A DNA stretch of 64,000 nt from Phyllobacterium myrsinacearum (GTDB taxonomy: Bacteria; Pseudomonadota; Alphaproteobacteria; Rhizobiales; Rhizobiaceae). Below, piece after piece: positions 30,810-61,170 of the stretch; position 1 is the stretch's first letter, and each line of letters opens with the position of its first letter. The stretch spans positions 496,001 to 560,000 of the forward strand of contig NZ_PVBT01000001.1 of NCBI RefSeq assembly GCF_002980555.1. Direction: 5' to 3'. Below the pieces are notes generated by a model. It did not search any database and had not been told where the DNA came from. It saw only the letters and a list, made by a program, of their open reading frames with translations. The position numbers and the translations under genes were made by a program.

Positions 30810-30868
30810 TTCATCACCTTGCATCGGGCCGCGAACACACGCATTGTGATGCTTTGCATGAGGCCCCG

Positions 30869-32098
30869 ATGGATTATCTTATTTTCTGGGAATGGCTCAG
30901 CTTTGCCGCCCGCTGGTTGCATGTGATCACTGCAATCGCCTGGATCGGCTCATCCTTCTATTTCATCGCGCTCGATCTGGGGCTACGCCGCCATCAGGGC
31001 CTGCCGCAGGGGGTGAATGGCGAGGAATGGCAGGTGCATGGCGGCGGCTTCTACCACATTCAGAAATATATGGTCGCGCCGCCCAACATGCCGGAACATC
31101 TGATCTGGTTCAAATGGGAGTCCTATGCCACCTGGCTTTCCGGCTTTGCGCTTCTGTGCATCGTCTACTACGCGGGCGCTGACCTCTATCTCATCGACCG
31201 CAATGTCCTTGACGTTTCGACGCCGGTCGCCATCCTGATTTCGCTGGCGTCGATCGGCCTCGGCTGGCTGATTTACGATCTCCTGTGCAAGTCGCCGCTG
31301 GCGAACAATGACACGGCGCTGATGCTCATTCTCTATGCGGTCATCGTCTTCATGGCGTGGGGCTATACGCATCTGTTCACCGGGCGCGCCGCTTTCCTGC
31401 ATCTCGGTGCGTTCACCGCCACGATCATGTCGGGCAATGTATTCCTTCTGATCATTCCGAACCAGAAGAAGGTCGTTGCCGATCTGATCGCCGGCAAGAC
31501 GCCCGATCCGAAGCTCGGCAAGCAGGCGAAGCAGCGCTCGACGCACAACAATTATCTGACACTGCCTGTGATTTTCCTGATGCTGTCCAATCATTATCCG
31601 CTGGCGAGTTCGACGGAATTCAACTGGATCATCGCGGCGCTGATTTTCATCATCGGCGTGCTCATTCGCCACTATTTCAACTCGAAACACGCCGGAACCG
31701 GCAATCCGCACTGGACATGGCTGGCCTCGGCCGTGCTGTTCATCGTCATCATCTGGCTGTCGACGGTGCCGAAGGTGCTGCAGGGACCGGAAAAAGTCTC
31801 GAACGCTGCCGCGCCGTTTCTTGCCGCGCAGAACTTTCAGGAGGTGCGCGACACTGTGATGGGGCGCTGTTCCATGTGCCATGCGGCGGAGCCGTCCTTT
31901 GAGGGCATCATGCACGCGCCCAAGGGAATTCGCCTCGATACGGATGAACTGATTGCGACTCATGCCAGCCAGGTCTATCTTTTCGCCGGAGCCAGCCACG
32001 CCATGCCGCCGGGCAACCTGACGCAGATGACAGATGCCGAGCGGTCCCGGATCGTGGCGTGGTACCGCGCCGCCGCATCGGGAAAATCCACGCAATGA
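30869..32098 (+). CDS. puuD: Urate hydroxylase PuuD (membrane, with cytochrome c domain)
   Basis: A 409-residue inner-membrane protein with about eight helices and a C-terminal c-type haem motif CSMCH at about residue 333, in RDTVMGRCSMCHAAEPSFEG, plus HAMPPGNLTQM that supplies the axial Met. PuuD oxidises urate to 5-hydroxyisourate and passes electrons to the respiratory chain through its cytochrome domain. The start MDYLIFWEWLSFAARWLHVITAIAWIGSSFYF matches the family. ATG 30869 has GAGG upstream. Its stop overlaps the start of guaD (ATGA), so the two are coupled in purine breakdown. Confidence 0.93.
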   Translation: MDYLIFWEWLSFAARWLHVITAIAWIGSSFYFIALDLGLRRHQGLPQGVNGEEWQVHGGGFYHIQKYMVAPPNMPEHLIWFKWESYATWLSGFALLCIVYYAGADLYLIDRNVLDVSTPVAILISLASIGLGWLIYDLLCKSPLANNDTALMLILYAVIVFMAWGYTHLFTGRAAFLHLGAFTATIMSGNVFLLIIPNQKKVVADLIAGKTPDPKLGKQAKQRSTHNNYLTLPVIFLMLSNHYPLASSTEFNWIIAALIFIIGVLIRHYFNSKHAGTGNPHWTWLASAVLFIVIIWLSTVPKVLQGPEKVSNAAAPFLAAQNFQEVRDTVMGRCSMCHAAEPSFEGIMHAPKGIRLDTDELIATHASQVYLFAGASHAMPPGNLTQMTDAERSRIVAWYRAAASGKSTQ

Positions 32099-33433: not shown

Positions 33434-34021
33434 TTATTCGACGCGGTAGCCGACTTCCGCCGCCGCATGTCCCAGCGTCTGCCAGAACGAGCGGGCAAAG
33501 GTGCGGAACACGTAGAGATCGAAGGTTTCCGCGTCGGTCCGCTGGATATTGGCGTGGATGTCGTGGTGCAGCGTGGCGCGGCCGAAGCCAACCGGAAAGC
33601 CGTGTTCGGAAAAGTCGATGGCAAACAGCTTCGACAACACCCATTCCGACCACGGGCCCTTGACGCGAATGGCGGTGCGGCCATGGGTAAGGTCAATGAT
33701 CGTGCCGGTTTCCAGAGGGATGGCCCTGCGCAGGCGGTCTTCCAGATCAGCGGACGGAGCCACGACGAAATAACGTCCGGGCGCGAAGCCGAAGGCGGAT
33801 TTTTCGCCTGCGCTGCGCCCCGCGCCGGGTTTGTCGGCAAGGTTCAATCCGGTCACATCGCCGATGGCGGTCAGCACGGCGGGGATGGTTCCGCGCCATG
33901 CGGTGACCTGCACGATGGAAACATCCCTGCGCTCGGTCAGGACAAGACCGATGCCGCCGGCGGAGTTGCCATGGTCACCCGGAACAAAGGTATGGCCGAG
34001 GGGAGATTGTGGTTCAGCCAT
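33434..34021 (-). CDS. soxG: Sarcosine oxidase gamma subunit
   Basis: A 195-residue SoxG-family protein with weak similarity to the GcvT fold: IGLVLTERRDVSIVQVTAWRG, FAPGRYFVVAPSADLEDRLR, IIDLTHGRTAIRVKGPWSEWVLSKLFAIDF. It is the structural partner of the alpha subunit in the four-subunit enzyme that oxidises sarcosine to glycine and formaldehyde/5,10-methylene-THF. The start ATG at 34021 overlaps the end of soxA by 8 bases. It is the last gene of the minus-strand soxD-soxA-soxG operon. Confidence 0.9.
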   Translation of the reverse strand: MAEPQSPLGHTFVPGDHGNSAGGIGLVLTERRDVSIVQVTAWRGTIPAVLTAIGDVTGLNLADKPGAGRSAGEKSAFGFAPGRYFVVAPSADLEDRLRRAIPLETGTIIDLTHGRTAIRVKGPWSEWVLSKLFAIDFSEHGFPVGFGRATLHHDIHANIQRTDAETFDLYVFRTFARSFWQTLGHAAAEVGYRVE

Positions 34022-47913: not shown

Positions 47914-50004
47914 CTATTCCCGCGAGCGGCGGGCGGCCCTGTCCTCGCGCGAGCGGCGGCGCGGGGTGGCATCGCCCGTCTGGCCATCCTCGCCCACGTT
48001 CTTGCGCGGCGGCAGCGTGACGGCCAGCGACAGCTTGGGGAAGGGGTCGACCTTGTTGGGCATGGCCATGGCATAGACGAAGTGCTCCTGGAATTTTGGC
48101 TCCAGCGCCGTCTCGATCTTTTCGATGCGGGTGACCGTGTCTTCGATTTCGCGGCGGTAGTCGCGGTTGAGCAGCGCCATGCGCGCGCCCGTGCCTGCCG
48201 CATTGCCGACGGCCTTCACCTTGTCGAGGTCGCAATCGGGGATGAGCCCGAGCACCATGGCATATTTCGGGTCGATGAAGGAGCCAAAAGCCCCGGCAAA
48301 GCGGATCTGGTCGACATGGTCGATGCCCTGCTTGTCCATCAGCAGCTTGACGCCGGCATAGAGCGCGGCCTTGGCCAGCTGGATCGCCCGCACGTCGTTC
48401 TGCGTGATGATGATGGTCGGCGATCCCTCGTGCAAGAGATAGGAGAAGGTGCGGCCCGTTGGCCGGATGCGCGGTGATGTGGCGGCAAAGCTGCCATCCA
48501 CCACGCCGTCTTCGGAAATGATGCCGGAAAGGTACATTTCCGCGACGACTTCGATGATGGCCGAGCCGCAGATGCCGGTGATGCCGCTGGCCTGCACCGC
48601 TTCGGCAAAGCCTGCCTCATCCGACCATTGTTCCGTGCCGATGACGCGGAAACGCGGCTCCAGCGTGACGGGATCGATGCGCACGCGCTCGATGGCGCCG
48701 GGCGCGGCGCGCTGGCCGCCGGAAATTTCAGCGCCTTCGAAGGCGGGGCCGGTCGGGGAGGAGGCGGCAACGGTGCGCTGGCGGTTGCCGAGCACGATTT
48801 CGGCATTGGTGCCGACATCGACGAGCAGCATCATTTCATCCTGCCGGTGCGGGCCTTCCGCGAGCGTCGCGGCGGCCGCATCGGCGCCGACATGACCGGC
48901 GATACAGGGCAGCATGTAGACCCGCGAGCCGGGATTCATGGCAAGGCCGATCTCGCTGGCTTTCAGGTGCACCGCGCCGGACACGGCAAGCGCAAAGGGG
49001 GCGCCGCCCAGCTCCGTGGGGTCAATGCCGAGGAAGAGGTGGTGCATGATCGGATTGCCGACAAAGACCGCATCGAGAATGTCTTCGCGCGCCACATTGC
49101 CCTCGGCGCAGACCCTGCCGATCAGCTCGTTGATGGCTTCGCGCACCGCATTGGTCATGCCTTCGCGCCCGTCCGGGTTCATCATGACGTAGGAGACGCG
49201 GCTCATCAGATCTTCGCCGAAGCGGATCTGCGGGTTGGACGTCCCGGCCGAAGCAATGGTGCGCACCGACAACAGGGACGACAGATGCATGGCAATGGTG
49301 GTGGAACCGATATCGCAGGCGATGCCATAGGCCTCGTTCTTCAGGCCCGGCCACAGGCCGATCATCACCGGCCGCGATGTTTCCTCGTCATGGTGGATGG
49401 CGGCGGTGACCGACCATTCGCCCTTGCGCAGGATCTTTTGGATCTGCGGCAGGAGATAGGCGTCCACGTCGAGATTGCGGATGCCCCATTCCTTTTCCAG
49501 CGCCGCCTTCAGGCGATCGAGATCGCCAAGCGGCTTGTGCATGTCGGGCTCTTCCACCTCGACATAGCACATGTGCACGGCGGGGTTGCGCTCGATGATG
49601 CGCGTATCGGCATCCTTGCGCACGACCTGCGCATTGACCTGGACGTCCTGCGGCACGTCGACAACGAGATCGCCGAGAATGGTGGCCGAGCAGGAAAGAC
49701 GGCGCCCGTCCTTCAGGTCGCGCTTTTCGGCATAGCGCTTTTCCTTCGGGCCGAATTCGGAGATGTGGTCGTTGGAGGAAGTGATGCCGTGCTTGGCGAA
49801 GCGGCCTTCCTGCACGTCGATCTGGCAGCGCCCGCAGATGCCGCGCCCGCCGCACACGCTTTCCACATAGACACCCAGGGTTCGGGCGGCTTCCAGCACG
49901 GTCGTGCCGACCGGAAAATGCCCGCGTTTGCCCGACGGCATGAACAGGACAAGTGCGTCCTTTGCCGATGCTTCAGTGTCTTTCACGGGTGCGTCCACGA
50001 TCAA
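47914..50004 (-). CDS. RACo-type corrinoid reactivation protein (2Fe-2S/ASKHA, DUF4445)
   Basis: A 696-residue protein. The N-terminal ferredoxin domain has Cys51, Cys57 and Cys60 in ESVCGGRGICGRCQ and Cys105 in RLSCSATIL, for a plant-type 2Fe-2S cluster. From about residue 225 comes the ASKHA ATPase domain (YGIACDIGSTTIAMHLSSLL, VLVDVGTNAEIVLGN-like stretch at MMLLVDVGTNAEI). Such proteins reduce inactive cob(II)amide to cob(I)amide on corrinoid methyltransferases at the cost of ATP. It is the end of the minus-strand operon with the pterin methyltransferase, MetF-like and virulence-factor genes. It ends with a basic tail, PRRRSREDRAARRSRE. Confidence 0.88.
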   Translation of the reverse strand: MIVDAPVKDTEASAKDALVLFMPSGKRGHFPVGTTVLEAARTLGVYVESVCGGRGICGRCQIDVQEGRFAKHGITSSNDHISEFGPKEKRYAEKRDLKDGRRLSCSATILGDLVVDVPQDVQVNAQVVRKDADTRIIERNPAVHMCYVEVEEPDMHKPLGDLDRLKAALEKEWGIRNLDVDAYLLPQIQKILRKGEWSVTAAIHHDEETSRPVMIGLWPGLKNEAYGIACDIGSTTIAMHLSSLLSVRTIASAGTSNPQIRFGEDLMSRVSYVMMNPDGREGMTNAVREAINELIGRVCAEGNVAREDILDAVFVGNPIMHHLFLGIDPTELGGAPFALAVSGAVHLKASEIGLAMNPGSRVYMLPCIAGHVGADAAAATLAEGPHRQDEMMLLVDVGTNAEIVLGNRQRTVAASSPTGPAFEGAEISGGQRAAPGAIERVRIDPVTLEPRFRVIGTEQWSDEAGFAEAVQASGITGICGSAIIEVVAEMYLSGIISEDGVVDGSFAATSPRIRPTGRTFSYLLHEGSPTIIITQNDVRAIQLAKAALYAGVKLLMDKQGIDHVDQIRFAGAFGSFIDPKYAMVLGLIPDCDLDKVKAVGNAAGTGARMALLNRDYRREIEDTVTRIEKIETALEPKFQEHFVYAMAMPNKVDPFPKLSLAVTLPPRKNVGEDGQTGDATPRRRSREDRAARRSRE

Positions 50005-50080
50005 TGCTCCAAGACTTCAAGGCGAAGGGCATTCACGCCCGCCGCCTTTCTATGCCGAGCGGTTGGCCCGGTGCAAACAG

Positions 50081-51043
50081 TCAGCCTGCGGCGCCGCGCC
50101 GCGCTTCACGGCCACCGCGCCGGCGTCCGCCGCCATTGGCGTCGGCAGGTACGGAAACAGCAGGCGCTGCCCCGGCCGCGGCCGGCTGGTGGTCGCGGTA
50201 TTTCTTGATCCAGTAGGTGCAGTTGGCGTCGGTGCCGTTGAGGACGTTGGCGGCGTGCACCGCTTCCATTTCCTGCGGGCGGCAGGGATTCATGATCGCC
50301 GAAGTCATGCCGGCGCCGATCACCATGGGAATGAACCCGGCATTGATGCCGTGCCGATGCGGCAGGCCGAAGGAGATGTTGGACAGACCGCAGGTGGTGT
50401 TGACCTTCAGTTCCTCGCGCAGGCGGCGCAGCAATGCGAAAACCTGGCGGCCCGCATCGCCGAGAGCGCCGATGGGCATGACCAGAGGATCGACGACGAT
50501 ATCATGCGCCGGAATGCCGAAATCGGCGGCGCGCTGCACGATCTTCTTGGCAACGGCGAAACGCACGTCCGGGTCCATGGAAATGCCGGTCTCGTCGTTC
50601 GAGATGGCGACGACGGGAACATTGTATTTCTTGATCAGCGGCAGGATGGCTTCAAGCTTTTCCTCCTCGCCGGTGACGGAATTGACCAGCGGGCGGCCCT
50701 TGGCCACTTTCAGCGCCGCTTCGATGGCGGCGGTGACTGAACTGTCGATGGACAGGGGAACATCGACAAGGTTCTGCACGATTTCCAGGGTCTTGACGAG
50801 AAGACCCGGTTCCGTCGCATTGGGATCGACGGCGGTGACGCCCGCATTGACGTCGAGCATGGTCGCGCCGGCGGCAACCTGTTCCAGCGCGTCCTTGATG
50901 ACCGTGTCGAAATTGCCTTCGATCATCTCGGCTGCAAGCTTCTTGCGGCCGGTCGGATTGATGCGCTCGCCGATCACGCAGAAGGGCTGATCAAATCCGA
51001 TGATGATTTCTCTGGTCGCCGAGGCAACGATGGTGCGGGTCAT
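50081..51043 (-). CDS. Pterin-binding methyltransferase (methyl-THF:corrinoid type)
   Basis: A 320-residue DHPS-like TIM barrel: FCVIGERINPTGRKKLAAEM, ATMLDVNAGVTAVDPNATE, PLSIDSSVTAAIEAALKVAKGRPLVNSVTGE, DIVVDPLVMPIGA, and TTCGLSNISFGLPHRHGINAGF. This is the fold of AcsE, MtgA and the MetH pterin domain, which move a methyl group between corrinoid and tetrahydrofolate. In this locus it would accept the methyl from the MttB/corrinoid pair. Its end (after residue 300) is a low-complexity tail NGGGRRRGGREARRGAAG that is not part of the fold. The downstream gene is RACo. Confidence 0.88.
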   Translation of the reverse strand: MTRTIVASATREIIIGFDQPFCVIGERINPTGRKKLAAEMIEGNFDTVIKDALEQVAAGATMLDVNAGVTAVDPNATEPGLLVKTLEIVQNLVDVPLSIDSSVTAAIEAALKVAKGRPLVNSVTGEEEKLEAILPLIKKYNVPVVAISNDETGISMDPDVRFAVAKKIVQRAADFGIPAHDIVVDPLVMPIGALGDAGRQVFALLRRLREELKVNTTCGLSNISFGLPHRHGINAGFIPMVIGAGMTSAIMNPCRPQEMEAVHAANVLNGTDANCTYWIKKYRDHQPAAAGAAPAVSVPADANGGGRRRGGREARRGAAG

Positions 51044-51054
51044 TCAGGAAATCC

Positions 51055-51951
51055 TTACTTGGATGCTGCGGATGCGTATTGGGCCGATGCGACGGTCCAG
51101 GAGCCGCGATCGACCAGCCATTCGGAGGACTTCTTCAGGCCGCCGAACGGGAAAATGTGGATCTGCTTGATGGCCGAGGCCGGATTGTTGATGACGTGCT
51201 GCTCGATCGGGCCGACCACGCCTTCCGGCGAATGGCTGGTGGCAAGCGCTGTCAGCGACAGGGCGTTCTTCTTCAGGAAGCTGATCGAGTTGCCGACGCC
51301 GCACATGGCGGCATATTTGATCAGCGTGGTGATCTTGGCGGGACCGGCAACGCCGAGATGCACGGGCAGATCAACGCCATGTTCGCGCAGGGATTCCGAA
51401 TAGCGGATGAAACGCTCGGCATCGAAACCGAACTGCGTGACCACGCGCAGGCGGGCGCCGGTGCGTTCGCCGAAATTCTGCTTCAGGCGCAGGGCTTCCA
51501 GCGCCACGGCCTCGGAAAATTCCGGGCTGCCTTCGGGATGGCCGGCAACGCCCATCTCGGTGATGCCGTATTTGTCGAAAAAGCCGGTTTCCAGCACTTC
51601 CATGGTGGAGGAGAACTCGCCGGCCTGCCGTTCGAGGCCGCCGCCGATGACCAGAACATCGGTCACGCCGGCTTCTTCAGCGGCGCGGCGGATGCGGGTT
51701 TCCAGCGCTGCGCGAGTTCCAAGGCGGCGGGAGGCGAAATGCGGCACGGGCTTGTAGCCGAGATCATGAATGCGCTTGGCGGCAGCGGTGAGCGTGTCCA
51801 CGCCATCGGTGCCCATGTCGGTGATGTAAACACGCGTCCCCTCGGGGAACAGACCCGGCAGGTCCTGTGAATCAATCGCCTGGCGCGCGGCCACTTCGAT
51901 GGATGCTGCGATCTTTGTCATGGGCTTTGCTTTCAATTCATGAATTGTCAT
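51055..51951 (-). CDS. MetF-like methylenetetrahydrofolate reductase family protein
   Basis: A 298-residue MTHFR-type barrel. Recognisable are VYITDMGTDGVDTLTAAAKRIHDLGYKPVPHFASRR, VTDVLVIGGGLERQAGEFSSTMEVLETG, GVAGHPEGSP and VVTQFGFDAERFIRYSESLREHGVDLPVHLGVAGPAKITTLIKYA. In the present context the reductase may run in reverse, oxidising methyl-THF to methylene-THF. The first ATG, at 51951, overlaps the end of the virulence-factor-family gene by 14 bases, so the two are translationally coupled; ATG 51921 is an alternative. The N-terminus is shorter than a typical MetF, and FAD residues cannot be verified by eye. Confidence 0.8.
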   Translation of the reverse strand: MTIHELKAKPMTKIAASIEVAARQAIDSQDLPGLFPEGTRVYITDMGTDGVDTLTAAAKRIHDLGYKPVPHFASRRLGTRAALETRIRRAAEEAGVTDVLVIGGGLERQAGEFSSTMEVLETGFFDKYGITEMGVAGHPEGSPEFSEAVALEALRLKQNFGERTGARLRVVTQFGFDAERFIRYSESLREHGVDLPVHLGVAGPAKITTLIKYAAMCGVGNSISFLKKNALSLTALATSHSPEGVVGPIEQHVINNPASAIKQIHIFPFGGLKKSSEWLVDRGSWTVASAQYASAASK

Positions 51952-52240
51952 GTCCGCCTGCCTTTACCAGCGCTACAAGGCGCTCCCGATGATATTCGCT
52001 GTCGATACGGGCGAGGGCTGCATCAGCCTCCGCGTCCAGATCATCACTCACCGGCACCGGTGTTCCCCGGCGCCATTCTGCCAGATAGGCGTCCGAATCC
52101 TTGGCGCCTATGCGCATCGCACACATGTCGATGGCCTCAGTAAATCGAAGAGGAAGTTCGCGTTTTGCGGCCTGGCGTCCCTTTTTGACGGTCACCTGAG
52201 CAGGAATGTCCCGCCAATAAACGACAATAAGATCGGCCAT
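51938..52240 (-). CDS. 'Virulence factor' family small protein
   Basis: A 100-residue protein, MADLIVVYWRDIPAQVTVKKG..., matching the small family named virulence factor (PF13769-like). RWRDIPAQV-like, RFTEAIDMCAMRIGAKDSDAYLAEWRRG and PVSDDLDAEADAALARIDSEYHRERLVAL are its recognisable blocks. The name has no functional meaning here. Its place as first gene of the operon with MetF-like, pterin methyltransferase and RACo, with overlap into the MetF-like gene, suggests it works with one of them. I cannot say how. Confidence 0.65.
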   Translation of the reverse strand: MADLIVVYWRDIPAQVTVKKGRQAAKRELPLRFTEAIDMCAMRIGAKDSDAYLAEWRRGTPVPVSDDLDAEADAALARIDSEYHRERLVALVKAGGHDNS

Positions 52241-52442
52241 GCACTTTATCCTCCAATGAGGACCGTTTTGCCGGAAAATCAGGGGTTAAGCTTGCTATCT
52301 CACGACGTGCGCGCCCTCAAATGCGACGTGCATCATTGTTGCTTTTGCGACAGGGATTTTAGTGGCGGTATCGCTATTCAACCCCGGACCTCCTGTGGAT
52401 GCCCGAGGTGACATTGCGTGACATTGCAATGACACGTTGCCT

Positions 52443-53027
52443 TCAGCGCTTGAATTCCATGACGTTGAGCAGGGATTCGTAATAGGGCGCCGGGAATTCG
52501 ATGCGGAAGGCATTTTTACCGGTGCGGTAGGCATAGCCAGCCTCGTCGGTTTTCGGGCCTGCGCCGTATTTCAGCGGTTTCTGATCCGCGACATAGCCGG
52601 TGCCGAGATAGGTCAGGCGGGTGTCGCTTTCGGTGTAGAACCGGCCCTTTGTGCGCTGCGAGCCCGTCACCTTTTCCAGCGCCCAGCCCGAACCGTCATC
52701 GGTGACCTTGCACTTGAACCAGCCATAGACGACGAGCGCCGGGGCCATGCCGCCAAGCTTGATCGTCCGGCACTGCCAGTTTCCGGTCATGTCGAAATCC
52801 TGGCTGAAGGGCAGGCCGGGCTGTTTCAAGAGGTTTTCGACCAGGCGCACATCGGCCGCAGTCCCGCTCGCCCTGGCCTGCGCCAAGGCTTTGGCGTTTG
52901 TCTGCTCGTACTGTTCGAGGCGCTTGCTGTCCGGCGCGGTGATGATCCTGGTGATTGCGCCATCCGCATGGGCGGCAGTCAGCATGCTCAGGCCGATCAT
53001 GACGGCAAAAAGGCTTCGAGACACCAT
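52443..53027 (-). CDS. DUF4893 exported protein
   Basis: A 194-residue product with a signal peptide (MVSRSLFAVMIGLSMLTAAHA, cleavage before DGAITR). The mature part contains NWQCRTIKLGGMAPALVVYGWFKCKV with two cysteines and GFYTE-like RFYTESDTRLTYLGTGYVADQKP, as in DUF4893 proteins. The ATG at 53027 is preceded by AAAGGA. It lies inside the corrinoid locus, in the same orientation as the operon, but no domain ties it to methyl transfer. Confidence 0.65.
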   Translation of the reverse strand: MVSRSLFAVMIGLSMLTAAHADGAITRIITAPDSKRLEQYEQTNAKALAQARASGTAADVRLVENLLKQPGLPFSQDFDMTGNWQCRTIKLGGMAPALVVYGWFKCKVTDDGSGWALEKVTGSQRTKGRFYTESDTRLTYLGTGYVADQKPLKYGAGPKTDEAGYAYRTGKNAFRIEFPAPYYESLLNVMEFKR

Positions 53028-53093
53028 GAAACTGTCCTTTGTTTTCGATTCCGTTGACGGCAGCATGCCGATTTGGGGACAGAAAGGAAAGCG

Positions 53094-53726
53094 TCAGGGC
53101 GTGGCCGGTGCTGCCGCCCGTGTCAGGGCCGGGATCAGGTCGCCATAGGCGGTAAAGCGCCGCTCATAGGCAAGCCCGAGAAATTCCGCCGCCCGCTCCG
53201 CATTGGCATTGAGCTTGGGGTCGTCGGTCTGGGCGAGATAGATCATCTTGGTATAATTGCCGAAATACATGTCGCGCAGTTCCGGATGGCGGTCGAGGCC
53301 AAGCGGCTTGACCATGAAGGCCTGGAAATGCCGGGCAAGGAAATCGGTCATGAAAAACGACGTCATGTCGTCCTCCCATCGGGAGGCAAAGGCCGCGTTG
53401 CCGGCATAGAAGGAGAAGCAATGCGGCCCTTCGATGCGCTCCACGCCATGCTTGGCGCAGACCTGGTCGAGCAGGCCGCCGGTGCCGCAATCGGCATAGC
53501 CGACGAAGATGCGCTTGATGCCTTCAGCCTTGGCCCGTACAATGGCCCGGTCAACCGATGGGGCGATCTTCTGGGGGTAATGGTGATAGACGGCGGGCAG
53601 GCATTTCAGCTCGATATGATCAAGGCCGAACTGTTCACGGATAGCCAGTATTTCACGGGCAATCATGCCGCAGGCGATCACCCGGATCTTTTCCGGCGTA
53701 TTCTTCGAGTTCCGGCTCATATTCAT
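53094..53726 (-). CDS. DUF1638 domain protein of the corrinoid locus
   Basis: A 210-residue protein: IRVIACGMIAREILAIREQFGLDHIELKCLPAVYHHYPQKI, IFVGYADCGTGGLLDQVCAKHGVERIEGPHCFSFYAG, FFMTDFLARHFQAFMVKPLGLDRHPELRDMYFGNYTKMIYLAQTDDP. Conserved cysteines (ACG, LKC, DCG, HC) and histidines could hold a metal or corrinoid. DUF1638 genes recur beside MttB/corrinoid genes in alphaproteobacteria and anaerobes, so a role in corrinoid handling or methyl transfer is likely, but the function is unproven. It ends 67 bases from the DUF4893 gene. Confidence 0.75.
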   Translation of the reverse strand: MNMSRNSKNTPEKIRVIACGMIAREILAIREQFGLDHIELKCLPAVYHHYPQKIAPSVDRAIVRAKAEGIKRIFVGYADCGTGGLLDQVCAKHGVERIEGPHCFSFYAGNAAFASRWEDDMTSFFMTDFLARHFQAFMVKPLGLDRHPELRDMYFGNYTKMIYLAQTDDPKLNANAERAAEFLGLAYERRFTAYGDLIPALTRAAAPATP

Positions 53727-53795
53727 GGAACTGATTTCGCTCCATCGCGTTATGCGAATGTTGATTAAATTCTATCAGAACGGGAGACACTGTCT

Positions 53796-53951
53796 ATGAA
53801 ACTATCACGCGTTGTGCCCATTGCCGCTGTCCTGGCTGTCGTCGCTCTTGCGGGCTGCGCCAACACCATCCGTGGCATGGGTGCCGATACAGCCAATACG
53901 GTGAATGCGACCCAGTCCGCTGGTCACAAGGTGGCACGGGCTGCCAAGTAA
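53796..53951 (+). CDS. Entericidin-like small lipoprotein
   Basis: A 51-residue product, too short for most ORF filters. It has a signal helix and lipobox: MKLSRVVPIAAVLAVVALAG then C20, so the mature lipoprotein starts CANTIRGMGADTANTVNATQ. This resembles entericidin A/B family members. AACGGGAGA precedes the ATG. Hairpins follow, including the strong terminator at 54010. It lies between DUF1638 and the corrinoid gene, both of which are read on the minus strand. Confidence 0.75.
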   Translation: MKLSRVVPIAAVLAVVALAGCANTIRGMGADTANTVNATQSAGHKVARAAK

Positions 53952-54009
53952 TTTCCCGGCTTGGCATTTTTGGGCCGCAACCGGCCCATTTCAGCAAACA
54001 TATATTTGA

Positions 54010-54044
54010 AAAACGGCCGCATTTGGATGCGGCCGTTTTGTTTT
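54010..54044. terminator. Bidirectional intrinsic terminator
   Basis: The arms AAAACGGCCGCAT and ATGCGGCCGTTTT enclose loop TTGG and are followed by GTTTT. It can end both the entericidin transcript (+) and the corrinoid protein transcript (-). Confidence 0.9.
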
Positions 54045-54047
54045 GGT

Positions 54048-54746
54048 TCAGGCGCCGGACATCTGGTTGTGCTTGCGCTTCATGTAGTCCTTGGCGGTTT
54101 CCACCGCGACGGCCGCGTCGCGGCAATAGGCATCGGCGCCGACGGCCTTGCCGAATTCCTCGTTGAGCGGCGCGCCGCCGACAAGCACGATGTAATCGTC
54201 GCGAATGCCCTTTTCCTTCATCGTGTCGATGACGACCTTCATGTAGGGCATCGTCGTCGTCAGCAGGGCGGACATGCCGAGAATGTCGGGCTTGTGCTCT
54301 TCGATGGCGGCCAGATAGTTTTCAACCGGGTTGTTGATGCCGAGATCGATGACGTCGAAGCCCGCGCCTTCCATCATCATGCCGACGAGATTCTTGCCGA
54401 TGTCGTGAATGTCGCCCTTCACCGTGCCGATGACGAGTTTGCCCTGTTTCGGCGCACCGGTGGCGGCGAGGAGCGGGCGCAAAATGAACATGCCGGCTTT
54501 CATCGCATTGGCCGACAAGAGGACTTCCGGCACGAAGAGGATGCCGTCGCGGAAATCCTCGCCGACAATGCGCATGCCTTCAACCAGCGCTTCGGTCAGC
54601 ACCTTGTAGGGCGCCCAGCCGCGCTCGAGCAGGATGTTGGTGCCTTCCTCGATTTCTTCCTTCAATCCGTCATAGAGATCGTCGTGCATTTGTTCGACGA
54701 GTTCGTCGTCCGAAAGCTCCGAAAGAATGATTTCATCGTCGGCCAT
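54048..54746 (-). CDS. Corrinoid (B12-binding) methyl carrier protein
   Basis: A 232-residue two-domain protein. The N-terminal cap is helical (EIEEGTNILLERGWAPYKVLTEALVEGMRIVGEDFRDG), and the C-terminal Rossmann domain has the B12 motif D112-x-H114-x2-G117 (GTVKGDIHDIGKNLVG), SALLTT at about 159-164 and LVGGAPL at 189-194. This is the MtgC/MttC/MetH layout that holds cobalt through His114. ATG 54746 is preceded by GAGGAAGAG. It is divergent from the mttB-like gene across a 253-base control region, the normal pairing for a MttB-superfamily system. Confidence 0.93.
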   Translation of the reverse strand: MADDEIILSELSDDELVEQMHDDLYDGLKEEIEEGTNILLERGWAPYKVLTEALVEGMRIVGEDFRDGILFVPEVLLSANAMKAGMFILRPLLAATGAPKQGKLVIGTVKGDIHDIGKNLVGMMMEGAGFDVIDLGINNPVENYLAAIEEHKPDILGMSALLTTTMPYMKVVIDTMKEKGIRDDYIVLVGGAPLNEEFGKAVGADAYCRDAAVAVETAKDYMKRKHNQMSGA

Positions 54747-54828
54747 GGGTGCTCTTCCTCTCAAGCGTTATGCACAGCTTTGTACCGGTACTGGCATTCC
54801 CTTAACATATCGGGCAAGTTGCTGAAAA

Positions 54829-54845
54829 CGCATTGCTTAAATGCG
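54829..54845. promoter_or_regulatory. Inverted repeat in the divergent control region
   Basis: CGCATT and AATGCG are separated by 5 bases between the corrinoid and mttB-like genes. It could be an operator shared by both promoters. It also ends in the AAATGCGAC string found ahead of the virulence-factor operon. Confidence 0.4.
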
Positions 54846-54999
54846 ACCTCGTAAATGACGAAAACGACTGTCTGTTTGTCTTCCATGCGCCATTGTTTGA
54901 CGCACACGGGAACGCCCCGATACGTGTCGCGGGTAGGATTTGATCGTTGAGGTCATGACCGAAGAACCAATCCGCGCATCAAGCGCCTGGAGAGAGAAA

Positions 55000-56586
55000 A
55001 TGAATCAGGAAACGCCAGTCGACGCACCCGTGGACACTGCAGAAGGCGGCGGACGCCGCGGACGCGGTGCTGGTGCGGGCGCTGCCGCCCGCCGCGCCGC
55101 CCGTTCCGGCGGCGGCCCCGGCAAGTCGCTCACCTTTATCACCCGCAAGATTCGCGAATATGAAGTGCTGGATGAGGAAGGGCTGGCGTTGATCGAAGCC
55201 AATGCCGATACCGTTCTCGAAGAGGTCGGTATCGAGTTCCGCGATGATGCGGAAGCCCTGCAGCTCTGGCGCGAAGCCGGCGCCGACGTCAAAGGCGAAC
55301 GGGTGCATTTCCCCAAGGGGCTTCCGCGGTCGCTTTTGAAGACAGCGCCCTCGATCTACACCCAGCATGCCCGCAATCCCGAACGGTCTGTCCAGATCGG
55401 CGGCAAGGCCACGGTGTTCGCGCCGGTGTACGGGCCGCCCTTCGTGCGTGATCTGGAAGGCAACCGCCGCTATGCGACCATCGAGGACTTCAACAATTTC
55501 GTGAAGCTTGCCTATATGGCGCCGTCGATCCACCACTCCGGCGGCACCGTGTGCGAGCCGGTCGACGTGCCCGTCAACAAGCGCCATCTCGACATGGTCT
55601 ATGCGCATATCAAATATTCCGACAAGCCGTTCATGGGCTCGGTCACCGCGCCCGAGCGGGCGGAAGACACGATTGCCATGTGCAAGCTCGTCTTCGGCGA
55701 GGACTATCTCGACCAGAACACGGTCCTGACCAGCCTGATCAATGCCAACTCCCCCATGGTCTTCGATGAAACCATGGTCGGCGCGCTGAAGGTCTATGCC
55801 CGCAACAACCAGGCCTGCATCGTCACGCCGTTCATTCTTGCCGGCGCCATGAGCCCGGTGACCGTTGCCGGTACGCTGACGCAGGTTCTGGCTGAGGTAC
55901 TGGCCGGTGCCTCCTTCACCCAGCTGATCCGTCCGGGCGCTCCGGTCATTTTCGGCACCTTCGCCTCGTCGATCTCGATGCAGTCGGGTGCGCCGACATT
56001 CGGCACGCCGGAACCCTCGCTGGTCTCCTACGGCGCGGCACAGCTGGCGCGCCGTCTCGGGCTGCCGTTCCGCACCGGCGGTTCGCTCTGCGCCTCAAAA
56101 GTTTCCGATGCACAGGCGGCCTATGAAAGCGCCAATACACTGAACTCGACGCTGCTGGCCGGGACAAACTTCGTGCTGCATTCGGCCGGCTGGCTCGAGG
56201 GCGGTCTCGTCTCTTCCTATGAAAAGTTCATGATGGACATCGACCAACTCGGCATGGCGCAGAAATTCGCCGAGGGCGTCGATCTCTCGGAGAACGGCCA
56301 GGCGATGGATGCCATCCGCCAGGTGGGGCCGGGCAGCCACTATCTCGGCTGCGACCACACGCAGGCGAATTTCCAGACGGCGTTCTACCGCTCCAACATT
56401 GCCGACAACAATTCCTACGAACAGTGGCTGGCCGAAGGCGAAAAACGTGCCGACCAGCGCGGCAACGAGCTGGCACGGCGCTGGCTCGAAAGCTACGAGG
56501 CGCCGTATCTCGATCCGGCCATCGACGAATCGCTGAAGGAATTCATCGCCAAGAAGAAGGCGTCGATGCCCGACGCATTCACCTGA
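55000..56586 (+). CDS. MttB-superfamily methyltransferase (non-pyrrolysine)
   Basis: A 528-residue TIM-barrel methyltransferase of the trimethylamine methyltransferase family. The whole frame reads without an in-frame TAG, so there is no pyrrolysine, as in MtgB (glycine betaine), MtpB and MtcB. After a low-complexity N-terminus (RRGRGAGAGAAARRAARSGG, about residues 18-40) come LTFITRKIREYEVLDEEGLALIEANADTVLEEVGIEFRDD, IEDFNNFVKLAYMAPSIHHSGGTVCEPVDVPV, NTVLTSLINANSPMVFDETMV and PFILAGAMSPVTVAGTLTQVLAEVLAG, and the SGLCASKVSDAQAAYE-like GGSLCASKVSDAQAAYESA. ATG 55000 has GGAGAGA upstream. The substrate may be glycine betaine or another quaternary amine; it is not shown. Confidence 0.9.
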   Translation: MNQETPVDAPVDTAEGGGRRGRGAGAGAAARRAARSGGGPGKSLTFITRKIREYEVLDEEGLALIEANADTVLEEVGIEFRDDAEALQLWREAGADVKGERVHFPKGLPRSLLKTAPSIYTQHARNPERSVQIGGKATVFAPVYGPPFVRDLEGNRRYATIEDFNNFVKLAYMAPSIHHSGGTVCEPVDVPVNKRHLDMVYAHIKYSDKPFMGSVTAPERAEDTIAMCKLVFGEDYLDQNTVLTSLINANSPMVFDETMVGALKVYARNNQACIVTPFILAGAMSPVTVAGTLTQVLAEVLAGASFTQLIRPGAPVIFGTFASSISMQSGAPTFGTPEPSLVSYGAAQLARRLGLPFRTGGSLCASKVSDAQAAYESANTLNSTLLAGTNFVLHSAGWLEGGLVSSYEKFMMDIDQLGMAQKFAEGVDLSENGQAMDAIRQVGPGSHYLGCDHTQANFQTAFYRSNIADNNSYEQWLAEGEKRADQRGNELARRWLESYEAPYLDPAIDESLKEFIAKKKASMPDAFT

Positions 56587-56672
56587 AAGAAGCCCGAGGA
56601 CGGCCGGGCTAAAGTGGCCAGTCTGATCCATCAGGAAGTCTGGGCCTCTGCTGTGAAGGGTCCAGGCCCCGG

Positions 56673-57359
56673 ATGATTGTTGCCGATCCGCTCCTTGACC
56701 AGATCACCGCCGCGCTGGAACCGCATGGTCTCGTTCCGCGCGGCGGTTTCGTGTTTGGACCCGGCGAGGCAGCGCCTTGCCTGCGCCACGATGCTGCAGC
56801 GCGCAGCATCGTTCTCGCTGGCCATTTCGGTTCATCGATCTGGCCGCATTTTACACGGTGGCGGCAGGCACACAGCGGTCAGCCCGATCTGCTGGATGCA
56901 TGGTCCAAGGCGGTGCTGACGCAGGTTGCGGACAAACTCGGCGGGCAGGCGGTGTTTCCGTCGGACAAGCCCTATCTGCCTTTCCAGCAATGGGCAAAGC
57001 GGGCGGAAAGTCTGTCTGCTTCGCCGCTGGGGCTGCTGATTCATCCCGAATATGGTCTCTGGCAGGCGTTTCGCGGCGCGCTGCTGTTTGACAGGGCAAT
57101 CGGTTTTCCCGCTGTTCCCCTGAACAATCATCCCTGCGATAGCTGCATCGACAAGCCCTGCCTGCATGCCTGTCCGGTCGATGCTTTCGACGGGACCGGC
57201 TTTGCTGTCGGGCGGTGCCGGGGGCATCTTGCGGTGCCGGAAGGCGCACTTTGCAGGGATGGCGGCTGTCTTGCCCGGCTGGCCTGTCCCATCGGGCGCG
57301 AACACGCCTATACCCCGGAACAGCAGCGCTTTCACATGGCGGCATTCGCCTCTGCCTGA
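56673..57359 (+). CDS. Ferredoxin-like protein related to the QueG C-terminal domain
   Basis: A 228-residue protein ending in Fe-S motifs: CDSCIDKPCLHACP (C-x2-C-x4-C-x3-CP) at about residues 154-167, then GRCRGH, LCRDGGCLARLACPIG. This arrangement is close to the two 4Fe-4S sites of epoxyqueuosine reductase, but without the B12-binding part. It starts 86 bases after the mttB-like gene, on the same strand. It may supply low-potential electrons to the corrinoid reactivation step; this is inference. Confidence 0.7.
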   Translation: MIVADPLLDQITAALEPHGLVPRGGFVFGPGEAAPCLRHDAAARSIVLAGHFGSSIWPHFTRWRQAHSGQPDLLDAWSKAVLTQVADKLGGQAVFPSDKPYLPFQQWAKRAESLSASPLGLLIHPEYGLWQAFRGALLFDRAIGFPAVPLNNHPCDSCIDKPCLHACPVDAFDGTGFAVGRCRGHLAVPEGALCRDGGCLARLACPIGREHAYTPEQQRFHMAAFASA

Positions 57360-57434
57360 CGTCAGCCAAAAAATATTTTGATTGATTGCATTTTTTCACC
57401 CAAGGATTGACGCCGTCGCATCGTCAAAGCTGCG

Positions 57435-58025
57435 ATGAACAGGGTGACAGGCATTTTGGACACTTCCCGTTTGACGGATGACATGGCGGATGTTTCAACC
57501 CTTGTGGCGCAGGCGCGCGCGGGGGATCGCAGCGCATTCGGGCTTCTGATCGAGCAGAATTACGACTTCATCCACCGCATTGCTTGGCGCTGGTCGGGCA
57601 ACCGCAACGATGCGGAGGATATCGCCCAGGATGTCTGCATCAAGCTTGGCAGTGCCATCCGCCAGTGGCGCGGCGAGGGGCTGCTGCGGACCTGGCTCTA
57701 CCGGATGACGCTGAATGCCGCGCGTGATCACCTGCGCCGCCATGCGCGGGAAAAGCACAAGGCCGAAGCCTATCACCGCGAACTGCTCAACGATGCCCCG
57801 GTTGCCGATGGCGCGGATGCCGAGGCCGGTGTCAGCGCGCTGTGGGCGGCGGTCAAGACATTGCCTGACAAGACCGCGGACGCCGTCCTGCTGGTCTATG
57901 GGGAGGGCTTGAATCATGCGCATGCAGCCCAAGTGCTCGATTGCGCCGAAGCCACGGTTTCGTGGCACATCCACGATGCCAAGAAACGGCTGAAGCGCAT
58001 CCTGCGCGCGCCGGAGGGCTTTTGA
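57435..58025 (+). CDS. ECF sigma factor
   Basis: A 196-residue sigma-70-family ECF protein. Region 2: LIEQNYDFIHRIAWRWSGNRNDAEDIAQDVCIKLGSAIRQWRGEGLLRTWLYRMTLNAARDHLRR; region 4: LPDKTADAVLLVYGEGLNHAHAAQVLDCAEATVSWHIHDAKKRLKR. The frame begins at ATG 57435; ATG 57483 is also in frame and possible. It is one base from the VWA gene, so the two are an operon, and the VWA protein may control it. No zinc-finger anti-sigma gene is seen nearby. Confidence 0.88.
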   Translation: MNRVTGILDTSRLTDDMADVSTLVAQARAGDRSAFGLLIEQNYDFIHRIAWRWSGNRNDAEDIAQDVCIKLGSAIRQWRGEGLLRTWLYRMTLNAARDHLRRHAREKHKAEAYHRELLNDAPVADGADAEAGVSALWAAVKTLPDKTADAVLLVYGEGLNHAHAAQVLDCAEATVSWHIHDAKKRLKRILRAPEGF

Positions 58026-58026
58026 C

Positions 58027-60081
58027 ATGACCGACGATCAAGACTTGAACCAGCTCGGCCGCATGACGCCGCCACCGCCATCCGATGCGGCCAAGCGCGC
58101 CGCGCTGCAGGCGGCCATGCGGGCGTTCGACACTGCCGATGCAAAAAATACCGCCGTGCAGACCCAAGGAAGCGGATTCATCCGGCGTCTCAGTTCCATC
58201 GCAACCCAATTGTGGAGTGAAACGATGGAAAAGAAATTGCTGTTGTCGACATCGGCCCTCGGCGGCCTGCTGATCCTGCCGATTGCGGGGTATGTCTCCT
58301 GGAACATGATGCACGACCCGCGCATGCTGGCGGGGGATCAGCAGGCTCCCGTCACGATAGAAGCGCAGCCGCCGCAGGTTGACGAGCCGAAGCCCGTGCA
58401 GCCGCAGCCCGTGCCAACGGTTGAACCGGCGGCGCCGAGCCCGTTGCCTGTCAAGCGGGCGCCGCTTGCCGGGCAGGTTGAAGCGCTCAGCAGTTCGAAA
58501 ACCATCGGGCAGGCGGCGGAAAAGCCCGTTCCCGCGGCCCCCATGCCCGCGCCTGCCGTGGAAATGGCGCAGGACAGCCTCGCTGCACCGGCTCCCATGG
58601 CCAATCAAAGTTTCACCAGGCTCGATAGCGAGGCCGCCATTGCGCCGCAGCAACCCTCGGGCGACCGGGTCCAGCGGTTCGATACCAATCCCGTCAAGCG
58701 TGTGGCCGATGATCCGGTGTCGACCTTCTCGATCGATGTGGACACGGCCTCCTACGCCATGGTGCGCCGTTCGCTGAAGGACGGTGCCTTGCCCGATCCC
58801 GACAGCGTGCGTGTCGAGGAGATGATCAATTATTTCCCCTATGACTGGAAAGGGCCGCAGAGCCGCGAGACGCCGTTCAACACCACGATCACCGTAACGC
58901 CCACCCCGTGGAACCAGAACACCAAGCTGATGCATATCGGCATCAAGGGCTATGACGTCATCCCGGCGGAAAAGCCGCGCGCCAATCTGGTGTTCCTGAT
59001 CGATGTCTCGGGATCGATGGATGAGCCGGACAAGCTGCCGCTGCTGAAATCCGCCTTCCACATGCTGGTGGGCAAGCTCGACCCGAAGGACAAGGTGTCG
59101 ATCGTCACCTATGCGGGCAATGCCGGAACCGTACTGGAACCGACGGAGGTGAAGGACAAGGCAAAAATCTTTGACGCATTGAACCGGCTGGAGGCGGGCG
59201 GGTCGACGGCGGGCGAAGCGGGTATCAAGGAGGCCTATCGCCTCGCCAAGGCCAATTTCGTCAAGGACGGCGTCAACCGCGTGATGCTGGCCACCGACGG
59301 CGATTTCAACGTCGGCCAGTCCAGCGACGATGAGCTGAAGACACTGATCGAGGATGAGCGCAAATCCGGCGTGTTCCTGTCGGTCTTCGGGTTCGGCGAG
59401 GGCAATTACAACGATGAGATGATGCAGGTTCTGGCGCAGAACGGCAATGGCACCGCCGCCTATATCGATACGCTGGCCGAAGCGGAAAAGACGCTGGTGC
59501 AGGAAGCAACCTCGACGCTGTTTCCGATTGCCAAGGATGTGAAAATCCAGGTCGAGTTCAATCCGGCTGTGGTGGCGGAATACCGGCTGATTGGCTACGA
59601 AACCCGTGCCCTCAAGCGCGAGGATTTCAACAATGACCGCATCGATGCCGGTGAAATCGGTTCGGGACATACGGTGACGGCCATTTACGAGATTACGCCG
59701 AAGAACAGTCCGGCCGTGCTGACCGATGACCTGCGCTACGCCAAGCCCAACGCAGCAACTGCCGATGCGAAAGCGGGATCGGATGAATATGCCTTCTTCA
59801 AGATCCGCTACAAGCTGCCGAACGAAGATGTGAGCAAGCTGATCACGACGCCGGTGACCAAGGCCAATGAGGTTTCGGCAGCCGCATCGGATGATGTGCG
59901 GTTCTCGACGGCCGTTGCCGCCTTCGGTCAAAAGCTGCGCGGGACGGACAGTCTGGCGACCTACAGCTATGCCGACATTGCCAGGCTCGGCGCGGGATCG
60001 CGCGGCGACGATGCTTTTGGCTATCGCAGCGAATTCCTGTCGCTGGTGCGGCTGGCCGATGCGCTGGAAGCTAAGAAATAA
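58027..60081 (+). CDS. VWA domain membrane protein (YfbK-like)
   Basis: A 684-residue protein. Residues 1-70 are soluble and helical (SDAAKRAALQAAMRAFDTA), a membrane helix lies at about 75-95 (LSTSALGGLLILPIAGYVSW), then a Pro-rich linker, the VWA N-region with SIDVDTASYAMVRRSLKDG, a VWA domain with the MIDAS DxSxS in VFLIDVSGSMDEPDKLPLL near residue 325, and a DUF3520-type C-terminus (DEYAFFKIRYKLP). It sits one base behind the ECF sigma gene, and the cytoplasmic N-terminus could act as its anti-sigma. The terminator at 60104 follows. Confidence 0.85.
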   Translation: MTDDQDLNQLGRMTPPPPSDAAKRAALQAAMRAFDTADAKNTAVQTQGSGFIRRLSSIATQLWSETMEKKLLLSTSALGGLLILPIAGYVSWNMMHDPRMLAGDQQAPVTIEAQPPQVDEPKPVQPQPVPTVEPAAPSPLPVKRAPLAGQVEALSSSKTIGQAAEKPVPAAPMPAPAVEMAQDSLAAPAPMANQSFTRLDSEAAIAPQQPSGDRVQRFDTNPVKRVADDPVSTFSIDVDTASYAMVRRSLKDGALPDPDSVRVEEMINYFPYDWKGPQSRETPFNTTITVTPTPWNQNTKLMHIGIKGYDVIPAEKPRANLVFLIDVSGSMDEPDKLPLLKSAFHMLVGKLDPKDKVSIVTYAGNAGTVLEPTEVKDKAKIFDALNRLEAGGSTAGEAGIKEAYRLAKANFVKDGVNRVMLATDGDFNVGQSSDDELKTLIEDERKSGVFLSVFGFGEGNYNDEMMQVLAQNGNGTAAYIDTLAEAEKTLVQEATSTLFPIAKDVKIQVEFNPAVVAEYRLIGYETRALKREDFNNDRIDAGEIGSGHTVTAIYEITPKNSPAVLTDDLRYAKPNAATADAKAGSDEYAFFKIRYKLPNEDVSKLITTPVTKANEVSAAASDDVRFSTAVAAFGQKLRGTDSLATYSYADIARLGAGSRGDDAFGYRSEFLSLVRLADALEAKK

Positions 60082-60103
60082 GGTAGTTGCATGGTTGAAA
60101 AGC

Positions 60104-60132
60104 AAATGGCCGGGATTTCCCGGCCATTTTTG
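60104..60132. terminator. Bidirectional intrinsic terminator
   Basis: The stem AAATGGCCGGG/CCCGGCCATTT with loop ATTT is followed by TTG. It lies between the VWA gene and the convergent bmt. Confidence 0.85.
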
Positions 60133-60156
60133 TCTCACATGCCAAATGGCCCGATC

Positions 60157-61170
60157 TCAGCCCCGGCGGCCGCGGCGCTCGCGCTTGGGCAGGTCATCGG
60201 CATGGGCGGAGAGCTTGTTGCGCATCGGCCCGATGGTTTCGATGATGGTCTCCACCGTCGGCCGGGTGCCGTTGACATGGCTGTCGAGTGCCTTGCGCAT
60301 GGCGGCCAGGTGCACGAACGAGGTGCCGCAGCAGCCGCCGATGATCTTTGCGCCGCCGTCAATCGCCATATGCGCATAATTGGCCATGAGTTCCGGCGTG
60401 CCGGAATAGAAAATCTCCGCGCCGCGGAATTCCGGAATGCCGCAATTGCCCTTGATGACGATGGTGGCCTGCGGATCGGCCTCCGACATGTCAAGCAGCG
60501 AAGCGAGGATATCCGAGGCGCCGACACCGCAATTGGCGCCCACGGCGACAGGGCGCGCGGCAAGCCCGTCGACGACGGCGTGAATATCTTTCGGCGGCAG
60601 GCCCATCATGGTCTTCCCCGCCGTATCGAACGAGCCGGTATAGACATAGGGCAGGCCAACCTTGACGGCAGCTTCTGCAGCGGCCCGGATTTCGCCGGGC
60701 GCCGACATGGTTTCGATCCAGGCGACATCGACGCCGCCGGCCTTCAGGCCTTCCAGCTGTTCGGTGAAGGCGGCAACGGCATCCTCTTCGGTCAGCGCGC
60801 CAAGCGGCACCAGCAGTTCGCCGGTCGGCCCGACCGATCCGGCGACAATCACCTTGCGCCCGGCCTTGTCGGCCACGGTGCGCGCGAGCTCGGCGGCCTT
60901 CCTGTTCAGCTCGAAAACCCGGTCCTGCGCGTGATGCAGTTTCAGGCGATGCCGCGTGCCGCCGAAGGAATTGGTGAGGATGATGTCAGCCCCGGCATCG
61001 ACGAAACCCTGATGCAGGGCAATGATCTTTTCCGGCTGGGCTTCATTCCACAGTTCCGGCGCTTCACCGGCCTCCAGGCCTGCGGCGAACAGGTTTGTGC
61101 CGGTCGCGCCGTCAGCCAAAAGGACACCTTTTTCAGCAAGAAGATCGGCAAGCGGATTGGCTGTGGTCAT
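60157..61170 (-). CDS. bmt: Betaine-homocysteine S-methyltransferase
   Basis: A 337-residue Zn-dependent homocysteine methyltransferase. Motifs: VLLADGATGTNLFAAGL, ADIILTNSFGGTRHRLKLH, VIVAGSVGPTGELLVPLG, and the Zn cysteines in VGANCGVG and IIGGCCGTSF. In Sinorhizobium a protein of this kind (Bmt) uses glycine betaine to make methionine, and the wider MttB locus is consistent with this. The C-terminus has a short basic tail, KRERRGRRG. It is on the minus strand, separated from the XRE gene behind it by 86 bases. Confidence 0.88.
   Translation of the reverse strand: MTTANPLADLLAEKGVLLADGATGTNLFAAGLEAGEAPELWNEAQPEKIIALHQGFVDAGADIILTNSFGGTRHRLKLHHAQDRVFELNRKAAELARTVADKAGRKVIVAGSVGPTGELLVPLGALTEEDAVAAFTEQLEGLKAGGVDVAWIETMSAPGEIRAAAEAAVKVGLPYVYTGSFDTAGKTMMGLPPKDIHAVVDGLAARPVAVGANCGVGASDILASLLDMSEADPQATIVIKGNCGIPEFRGAEIFYSGTPELMANYAHMAIDGGAKIIGGCCGTSFVHLAAMRKALDSHVNGTRPTVETIIETIGPMRNKLSAHADDLPKRERRGRRG

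Follow-up and report, generated by a model that had tools for sequence, protein, structure and literature searches.

An aerobic MtgBCD(E) methyl-transfer system has been reported in Ruegeria pomeroyi from proteomics and from mtgC and mtgD mutants, with both genes serving glycine betaine demethylation as well as methionine synthesis, and oxidation of methyl-tetrahydrofolate (methyl-THF) by MetF2 has been proposed for it (Mausz et al. 2025, PMC12478193). The aerobic system is therefore already published, and the locus described here in Phyllobacterium myrsinacearum belongs to this known type. It occupies positions 47914 to 61170 of the stretch of DNA that was analysed (the window, 64,000 nucleotides; positions 496001-560000 of contig C1 in a 5.44-Mb genome of 44 contigs that is 99.63% complete) and is centred on mttB1, a gene for a methyltransferase of the MttB superfamily. 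We consider it very likely that the locus encodes an aerobic, cobalamin-dependent MtgBCD(E)-type system in which MttB1 demethylates a quaternary amine, likeliest glycine betaine, and the methyl group travels through the corrinoid protein MtgC to tetrahydrofolate (THF), for oxidation via MetF2.

The mtg systems of R. pomeroyi and Sinorhizobium meliloti share with this locus an MttB-family MtgB, MtgC, MtgD, a MetF2 adjoining mtgD, RamA, DUF1638 and MtgE, all in an aerobic alphaproteobacterium. The Phyllobacterium genes lie in one cluster, as in S. meliloti, whereas those of R. pomeroyi are scattered, and the Phyllobacterium genome differs from the R. pomeroyi system in having both MetH and a MetE-like protein. 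Compared with the split methionine synthase of Phaeobacter inhibens (Price et al. 2018, PMC5764234), Phyllobacterium has an MttB attached and a redundant MetH. The anaerobic glycine betaine system MtgB/MtgC/MtgA of Desulfitobacterium hafniense follows the same three-part logic, and MttB1 scores 420 bits to the glycine betaine methyltransferase structure 9yce; however, the Phyllobacterium host is aerobic, its MtgC lies under the NCBIfam MtgC cut-offs and the methyl group is probably oxidised via MetF2. The cmu system on plasmid pCMU01 of Methylorubrum extorquens CM4 likewise catabolises methyl groups aerobically through corrinoid and THF, and its divergent MetF2 is related to that of Phyllobacterium (36.6% identity), but its primary methyltransferase and substrate differ. 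Finally, MetV (PF12225) and MetF, a pair known as MetVF from acetogens, occupy the MetF2 position in most Mesorhizobium and both Aminobacter loci; unlike the acetogen pair, they sit in an mtg operon and are proposed to work in the oxidative direction.

Gene content and conservation of the cluster

A non-pyrrolysine MttB, separate corrinoid and pterin-binding proteins, RACo, DUF1638 and a MetF paralogue adjoining mtgD, which together define the aerobic MtgBCD(E) type, are all present. On the minus strand, from position 54764 down to 47914, the order is mtgC, DUF1638, DUF4893, PF13769, metF2, mtgD and RACo (Table 1). The gene mttB1 is divergent from mtgC with 175 bases between them, the 3' end of the PF13769 frame overlaps the start of metF2 by 14 bases, and 11 bases separate metF2 from mtgD. 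As seen from mttB1, the homocysteine methyltransferase gene lies beyond the genes for an ECF sigma factor and a vWA/YfbK-like protein. Pfam matches placed all genes that a preliminary description of this DNA had grouped here at or within the limits of the interval, which also encloses the DUF4893, ECF and vWA genes that it had not named.

Related loci were represented by the best 80 of at least 582 confirmed candidates for MttB1 relatives (hereafter the named loci), which are mostly from Mesorhizobium and Phyllobacterium and closely related to one another; gene content was counted over 66 loci in which the stretch around the MttB1 relative exceeds 20 kb. Among the matches listed, the named relatives closest to MttB1 come from Phyllobacterium (97% in Phyllobacterium sp. 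628). MtgC and DUF1638 were each found in 65 of the 66 loci, PF13769 in 64, MtgD in 63, DUF4893 in 61, and RACo and Bmt in 58 each, and the relative gene order is identical in every pattern listed. The arrangement is not due to chance. The ECF sigma factor and the vWA protein occur in 52 and 50 of these loci, respectively; both are found in just one of 11 MetF2-type loci, yet they are present in the window itself. DUF4893 is probably not a core part; the N-terminus of the protein, read by eye, looks signal-like.

For DUF1638, residues C19, C80, C103, H48 and H102 are present in 27 of 27 alphaproteobacterial sample loci and C42 in 26, and this conservation of four cysteines and two histidines suggests a metal or iron-sulfur site. 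The P. inhibens homologue was found to be important for methionine synthesis and was placed with B12 reactivation, with no specific function proposed (Price et al. 2018, PMC5764234).

MttB1 and its likely substrate

The mttB1 frame is open, with no internal stop, hence MttB1 is not an enzyme with a pyrrolysine-coding TAG codon, as the preliminary description had recognised. Identification as the pyrrolysine-containing trimethylamine methyltransferase MttB was ruled out by the missing in-frame amber codon together with a score of 281 bits to TIGR02369, the family model of that enzyme, against a curated cut-off of 525 bits.

The best match of MttB1 among solved structures is 4yyc (985 bits), labelled 'putative trimethylamine methyltransferase', which we take to be an S. 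meliloti protein. It is followed by 2qne and 9yce, the latter a glycine betaine methyltransferase (about 420 bits), whereas the trimethylamine methyltransferase 7xcl reaches 128.7 bits, far below the score of 9yce. Judged from these similarities, the substrate of MttB1 would most likely be a quaternary amine, with glycine betaine the likeliest.

A second member of the superfamily, MttB2, is encoded just past the window and is 41.8% identical to MttB1. Its gene is flanked on one side by a dimethylglycine-dehydrogenase-type gene with DAO and GCV_T domains, and on the other by ATPase, permease and OpuAC betaine-binding genes. With this adjoining dehydrogenase-type gene and betaine-type ABC transporter, MttB2 has a stronger link to betaine than MttB1. 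A reading with two specialised enzymes has to be weighed: MttB2 would be the one that handles glycine betaine, the substrate of MttB1 would be a different quaternary amine (such as proline betaine, carnitine, choline or a plant betaine), and both would share MtgC. The low identity of the two proteins, the position of the dehydrogenase and OpuAC-type transporter genes beside MttB2 and not MttB1, and the several substrates known in the superfamily (discussion of PMC12478193) all favour it. Nevertheless, MttB1 scores nearer to the glycine betaine methyltransferase than does MttB2 (420 against 334 bits), and it is the copy adjoining mtgC, with MtgC found in 65 of the 66 related loci. On balance, we regard such a division of substrates as possible but the less probable reading, and glycine betaine is retained as the candidate substrate of MttB1.

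The genes for MttB2, the dehydrogenase and the OpuABC-like transporter lie on one strand (L003:4051-12057; C1:560051-568057) and form a compact candidate betaine catabolic unit. A gene near MttB2 (L003:15767-17224) encodes CbiA and CobB/CobQ-type glutamine amidotransferase domains and is perhaps part of cobalamin synthesis. Cobalamin genes are reported to be colocated in S. meliloti (Mausz et al., PMC12478193).

The putative MtgE and methionine synthesis

The gene product designated 'Bmt' in the preliminary description matches NF005718 at 556 bits (cut-off 338), a family that NCBIfam names betaine-homocysteine methyltransferase. In a sequence comparison the protein nevertheless scores higher against the homocysteine domain of MetH (139.6 bits to 1q7m) than against human BHMT (49.7 bits to 1lt7). 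Its S. meliloti homologue has been argued to be MtgE, a split methionine synthase module and not a betaine enzyme (Mausz et al., PMC12478193), and 'Bmt' is likewise better read as a putative MtgE, a split MetH module.

Three MetH-like pieces (MtgC, MtgD and MtgE) lie within about 11 kb, and it could be argued that the cluster serves mainly for methionine synthesis, with MtgC, MtgD and MtgE as a split MetH that MttB merely tops up with methyl groups. P. inhibens needs the homologues to make methionine (PMC5764234), as R. pomeroyi needs MtgC and MtgD (PMC12478193). However, a complete MetH (1769 bits, contig C2) and a MetE-like protein (773-aa frame, PF01717 506 bits) are kept in the genome, which makes the split pieces redundant, and a second, divergent MetF beside the canonical one points to catabolism. 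We therefore consider a mainly biosynthetic cluster unlikely, and argue for a catabolic role since the genome keeps the locus beside both of these enzymes. Genomes with both metH and mtgBCD have been reported in Hyphomicrobiales, among others (PMC12478193).

Identity and probable direction of MetF2

The canonical MetF is encoded elsewhere in the genome (C1:401447, 299.8 bits); MetF2, at 31.7 bits to the same model, is a distant paralogue. Its best solved relatives are 7xg9 and 7xlf (E 4e-50), followed by 8uy2 and 8uy1 (5.6e-6) and 1v93 (2e-5). The structure listing gives no organism for 7xg9, which is presumably the MetF of Sphingobium SYK-6. On pCMU01 of M. extorquens CM4, a single methylenetetrahydrofolate reductase (MTHFR) matches MetF2, with 36.6% identity, and in sequence MetF2 is related to the SYK-6/CM4 type and distinct from canonical MetF. 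The SYK-6 enzyme is described as typifying a subfamily with a preference for methyl-THF oxidation (review PMC13001107), the CM4 MetF2 is reported to be essential for chloromethane use, and in R. pomeroyi MetF2 topped the differentially synthesised proteins on each of the three N-osmolytes (PMC12478193).

Because its SYK-6-type and CM4 relatives are tied to methyl oxidation and the canonical MetF is encoded elsewhere, the oxidative direction is favoured and MetF2 probably oxidises methyl-THF. The opposite, in which MetF2 supplies methyl-THF in the reductive direction that is physiologically usual for the MTHFR superfamily to which it belongs (review PMC13001107), appears very improbable in view of the canonical copy, these relatives and the R. 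pomeroyi proteome (PMC12478193). For onward oxidation, the genome holds one match to FolD and two above the cut-off to PurU.

Exchange of the reductase module

The slot between mtgD and PF13769 holds MetF2 in Phyllobacterium, and MetV with a longer MetF in most Mesorhizobium, both Aminobacter and a few other loci. In one Mesorhizobium locus (L015), for example, MetV (PF12225, 95.6 bits) adjoins MetF (PF02219, 106 bits); MetV has no match in the window's own genome. PF13769 is present in 68 of the 80 named loci: 57 carry MetV-MetF (one with mtgD outside the stretch), 11 carry MetF2, none carries both and none neither. The remaining 12 lack both PF13769 and MtgD, ten being incomplete stretches and two (L067, L072) full-length. 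Among the MetF2-type loci are those of Mesorhizobium RMAD-H1 and Phyllobacterium phragmitis. Pairwise signal between MetF2 and the longer MetF is nearly absent (22% over 187 residues, E 0.05).

The analysis also covered 240 evenly sampled alphaproteobacterial genomes, in which MetF2-type proteins were counted at E <= 1e-20. PF13769 was found in 45 genomes, MetV in 20 and a MetF2-type protein in 41. A MetF2-type protein or MetV was present in 43 of the 45 genomes with PF13769 as against 16 of the 195 without (Fisher p 1.4e-31; the test ignores shared ancestry). Within the 45, 28 have MetF2 only, 13 MetV only, two both (G154, G200) and two neither (G007, G228), so that 41 have exactly one reductase module genome-wide (Fisher p 1.3e-7, again ignoring shared ancestry); here MetF2-type means at least 129 bits, and the matches that follow score no more than 40 bits and look like canonical MetF. 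The exceptions may be fewer still, since the MetF2-type frame of G200 has an internal stop and the G228 locus holds a longer MetF with a weak MetV-like signal. Gene content, conserved order, homology and complementarity of the reductase modules are what this analysis shows directly.

Presence of a reductase in a genome does not equal presence in the operon. Local context was taken from 40 of the 44 other PF13769 genomes (all but G007, G015, G074 and G084): 14 loci carry MetF2, 11 MetV and 15 neither within the stretch, partly owing to contig ends. Whichever reductase is present, PF13769 is accompanied in the stretch by at least one of DUF1638, MtgC, MtgD and RACo in 35 of the 40 loci and by none of them in five. 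In a tree of MtgC and MtgD with 32 rows (14 hand-picked from the 80 named loci, the 17 of the 40 sample loci that hold both proteins, and the window), the MetV label needs at least two changes, forced by the starred branches, and again two after removal of the four rows whose label comes solely from other parts of the genome.

We see about an even chance that the slot is exchangeable, with MetF2 or an acetogen-like MetV-MetF as methyl-THF oxidisers: the electron acceptor used in oxidising betaine methyl groups would have been re-plumbed at least twice, many rhizobia would run MetVF as an oxidase in air, and PF13769 would be a core subunit or adaptor of the one-carbon system. The database name of PF13769 ('Virulence_fact') says nothing about its role in the operon. 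The words 'virulence' and 'MetV' are absent from the main text of PMC12478193, and the open-licence part of PMC, where absence is weak evidence, yielded neither a study that places MetVF in aerobic betaine operons nor any mention of 'PF13769'. As far as these searches reach, the reductase swap and the recurrence of PF13769 are undescribed.

Proposed pathway

From the above, we infer the substrate, the direction of flow and the roles of the partners in the Phyllobacterium locus as follows. MttB1 would demethylate a quaternary amine, likeliest glycine betaine, and load the methyl group onto cob(I)alamin in MtgC, and MtgD would pass it on to THF. MetF2 would then oxidise methyl-THF to methylene-THF, and FolD and PurU would carry the carbon onward to formate. 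RACo, with DUF1638, would restore cob(I)alamin after its oxidation in air; alternatively, MtgE could transfer the methyl group from MtgC to homocysteine. PF13769 recurs as a small partner, and MttB2 probably shares the corrinoid core, for betaine imported by its adjoining ABC transporter. The core idea of the preliminary description, an aerobic route from MttB through a corrinoid protein to THF with probable oxidation by the MetF-like enzyme, agrees with the homology and with the R. pomeroyi work (PMC12478193); its interpretation is partly supported and was largely anticipated by the literature.

Several results weigh against this pathway. No transporter gene directly adjoins mttB1, and MtgC falls below the NCBIfam cut-offs for glycine betaine-specific corrinoid proteins (217.4 against 370 bits for NF047996, 178.2 against 310 bits for NF047995). 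A methionine role of the cluster is not needed, given the complete MetH and the MetE-like protein. The CM4 proteome is reported to have shown the chromosomal MetF and not MetF2. MetF2-type proteins are not tied to the mtg system alone, 11 of the 41 sampled genomes that have one lacking PF13769. A scan for 11 operon families over 12.8 kb around the CM4 metF matched MetF2 alone, and around the closest plasmid MetF2 (Shinella zoogloeoides, 55.4%) none of the other ten scanned families was matched in 14.9 kb; in both cases this covers 6-7 kb from the gene.

Neighbouring genes

The preliminary description had completed a plausible betaine-to-glycine route with the dimethylglycine-dehydrogenase-type gene and soxDAG of the window. 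These fit the later steps, but both lie 10-20 kb away and the stronger betaine link is at MttB2. The open reading frames (ORFs) of the window that were scanned, a subset of all, included no soxB, and the rest of the genome was not searched for it. The urate oxidase, invoked earlier as a respiratory context, is an unrelated neighbour.

Table 1. Features of the locus and its surroundings. Positions refer to the window, except for MttB2 (C1, contig; L003, locus stretch).
Feature	Position	Strand	Support or remark
RACo/RamA-like corrinoid reductive activase (2Fe-2S and RACo linker, middle and C-terminal domains)	47914..50004	-	Pfam PF14574 301 bits, PF17651, PF17650, PF00111
MtgD-like pterin-binding methyltransferase	50081..51043	-	PF00809 100 bits; NCBIfam NF005719 397.6 bits (cut-off 259)
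MetF2, divergent methylene-THF reductase, proposed methyl-THF oxidase	51055..51951	-	PF02219 32 bits; nearest PDB entry 7xg9, E 4e-50
PF13769 'Virulence_fact' small protein, recurrent operon member	51938..52240	-	PF13769 90 bits
DUF4893 protein	52443..53066	-	PF16233 156 bits
DUF1638 protein, proposed corrinoid reactivation partner	53094..53726	-	PF07796 90 bits
MtgC-like corrinoid protein, both B12-binding domains	54048..54764	-	PF02310 95 bits, PF02607 64 bits
MttB1, non-pyrrolysine MttB-superfamily methyltransferase, MtgB-like	54940..56586	+	PF06253 781 bits
ECF sigma factor	57435-58025	+	
vWA/YfbK-like protein	58027-60081	+	
Homocysteine S-methyltransferase, MtgE-type ('Bmt')	60157..61170	-	PF02574 212 bits; NF005718 556 bits
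MttB2	C1:562692-564272 (L003:6692-8272)	-	just outside the window, ~10 kb from MttB1
Dimethylglycine-dehydrogenase-type ORF	40866-43382	+	neighbour of the locus
SoxD-like frame	~37.0-37.3 kb		translation read by eye
SoxA	34014-37004	-	neighbour of the locus
SoxG	33434-34105	-	neighbour of the locus
Urate oxidase N-terminal family protein	30854-32098	+	PF06181 462 bits; adjoins an amidohydrolase gene

Conclusions

This locus carries a pathway recently elucidated in a marine bacterium over to a plant-associated soil genus. The reductase swap amounts to a natural experiment, in which closely related operons carry two designs of electron transfer, and it suggests that MetVF, known from acetogens, may act as an oxidase in aerobes. 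It also offers a function for PF13769, different from virulence, that can be tested.

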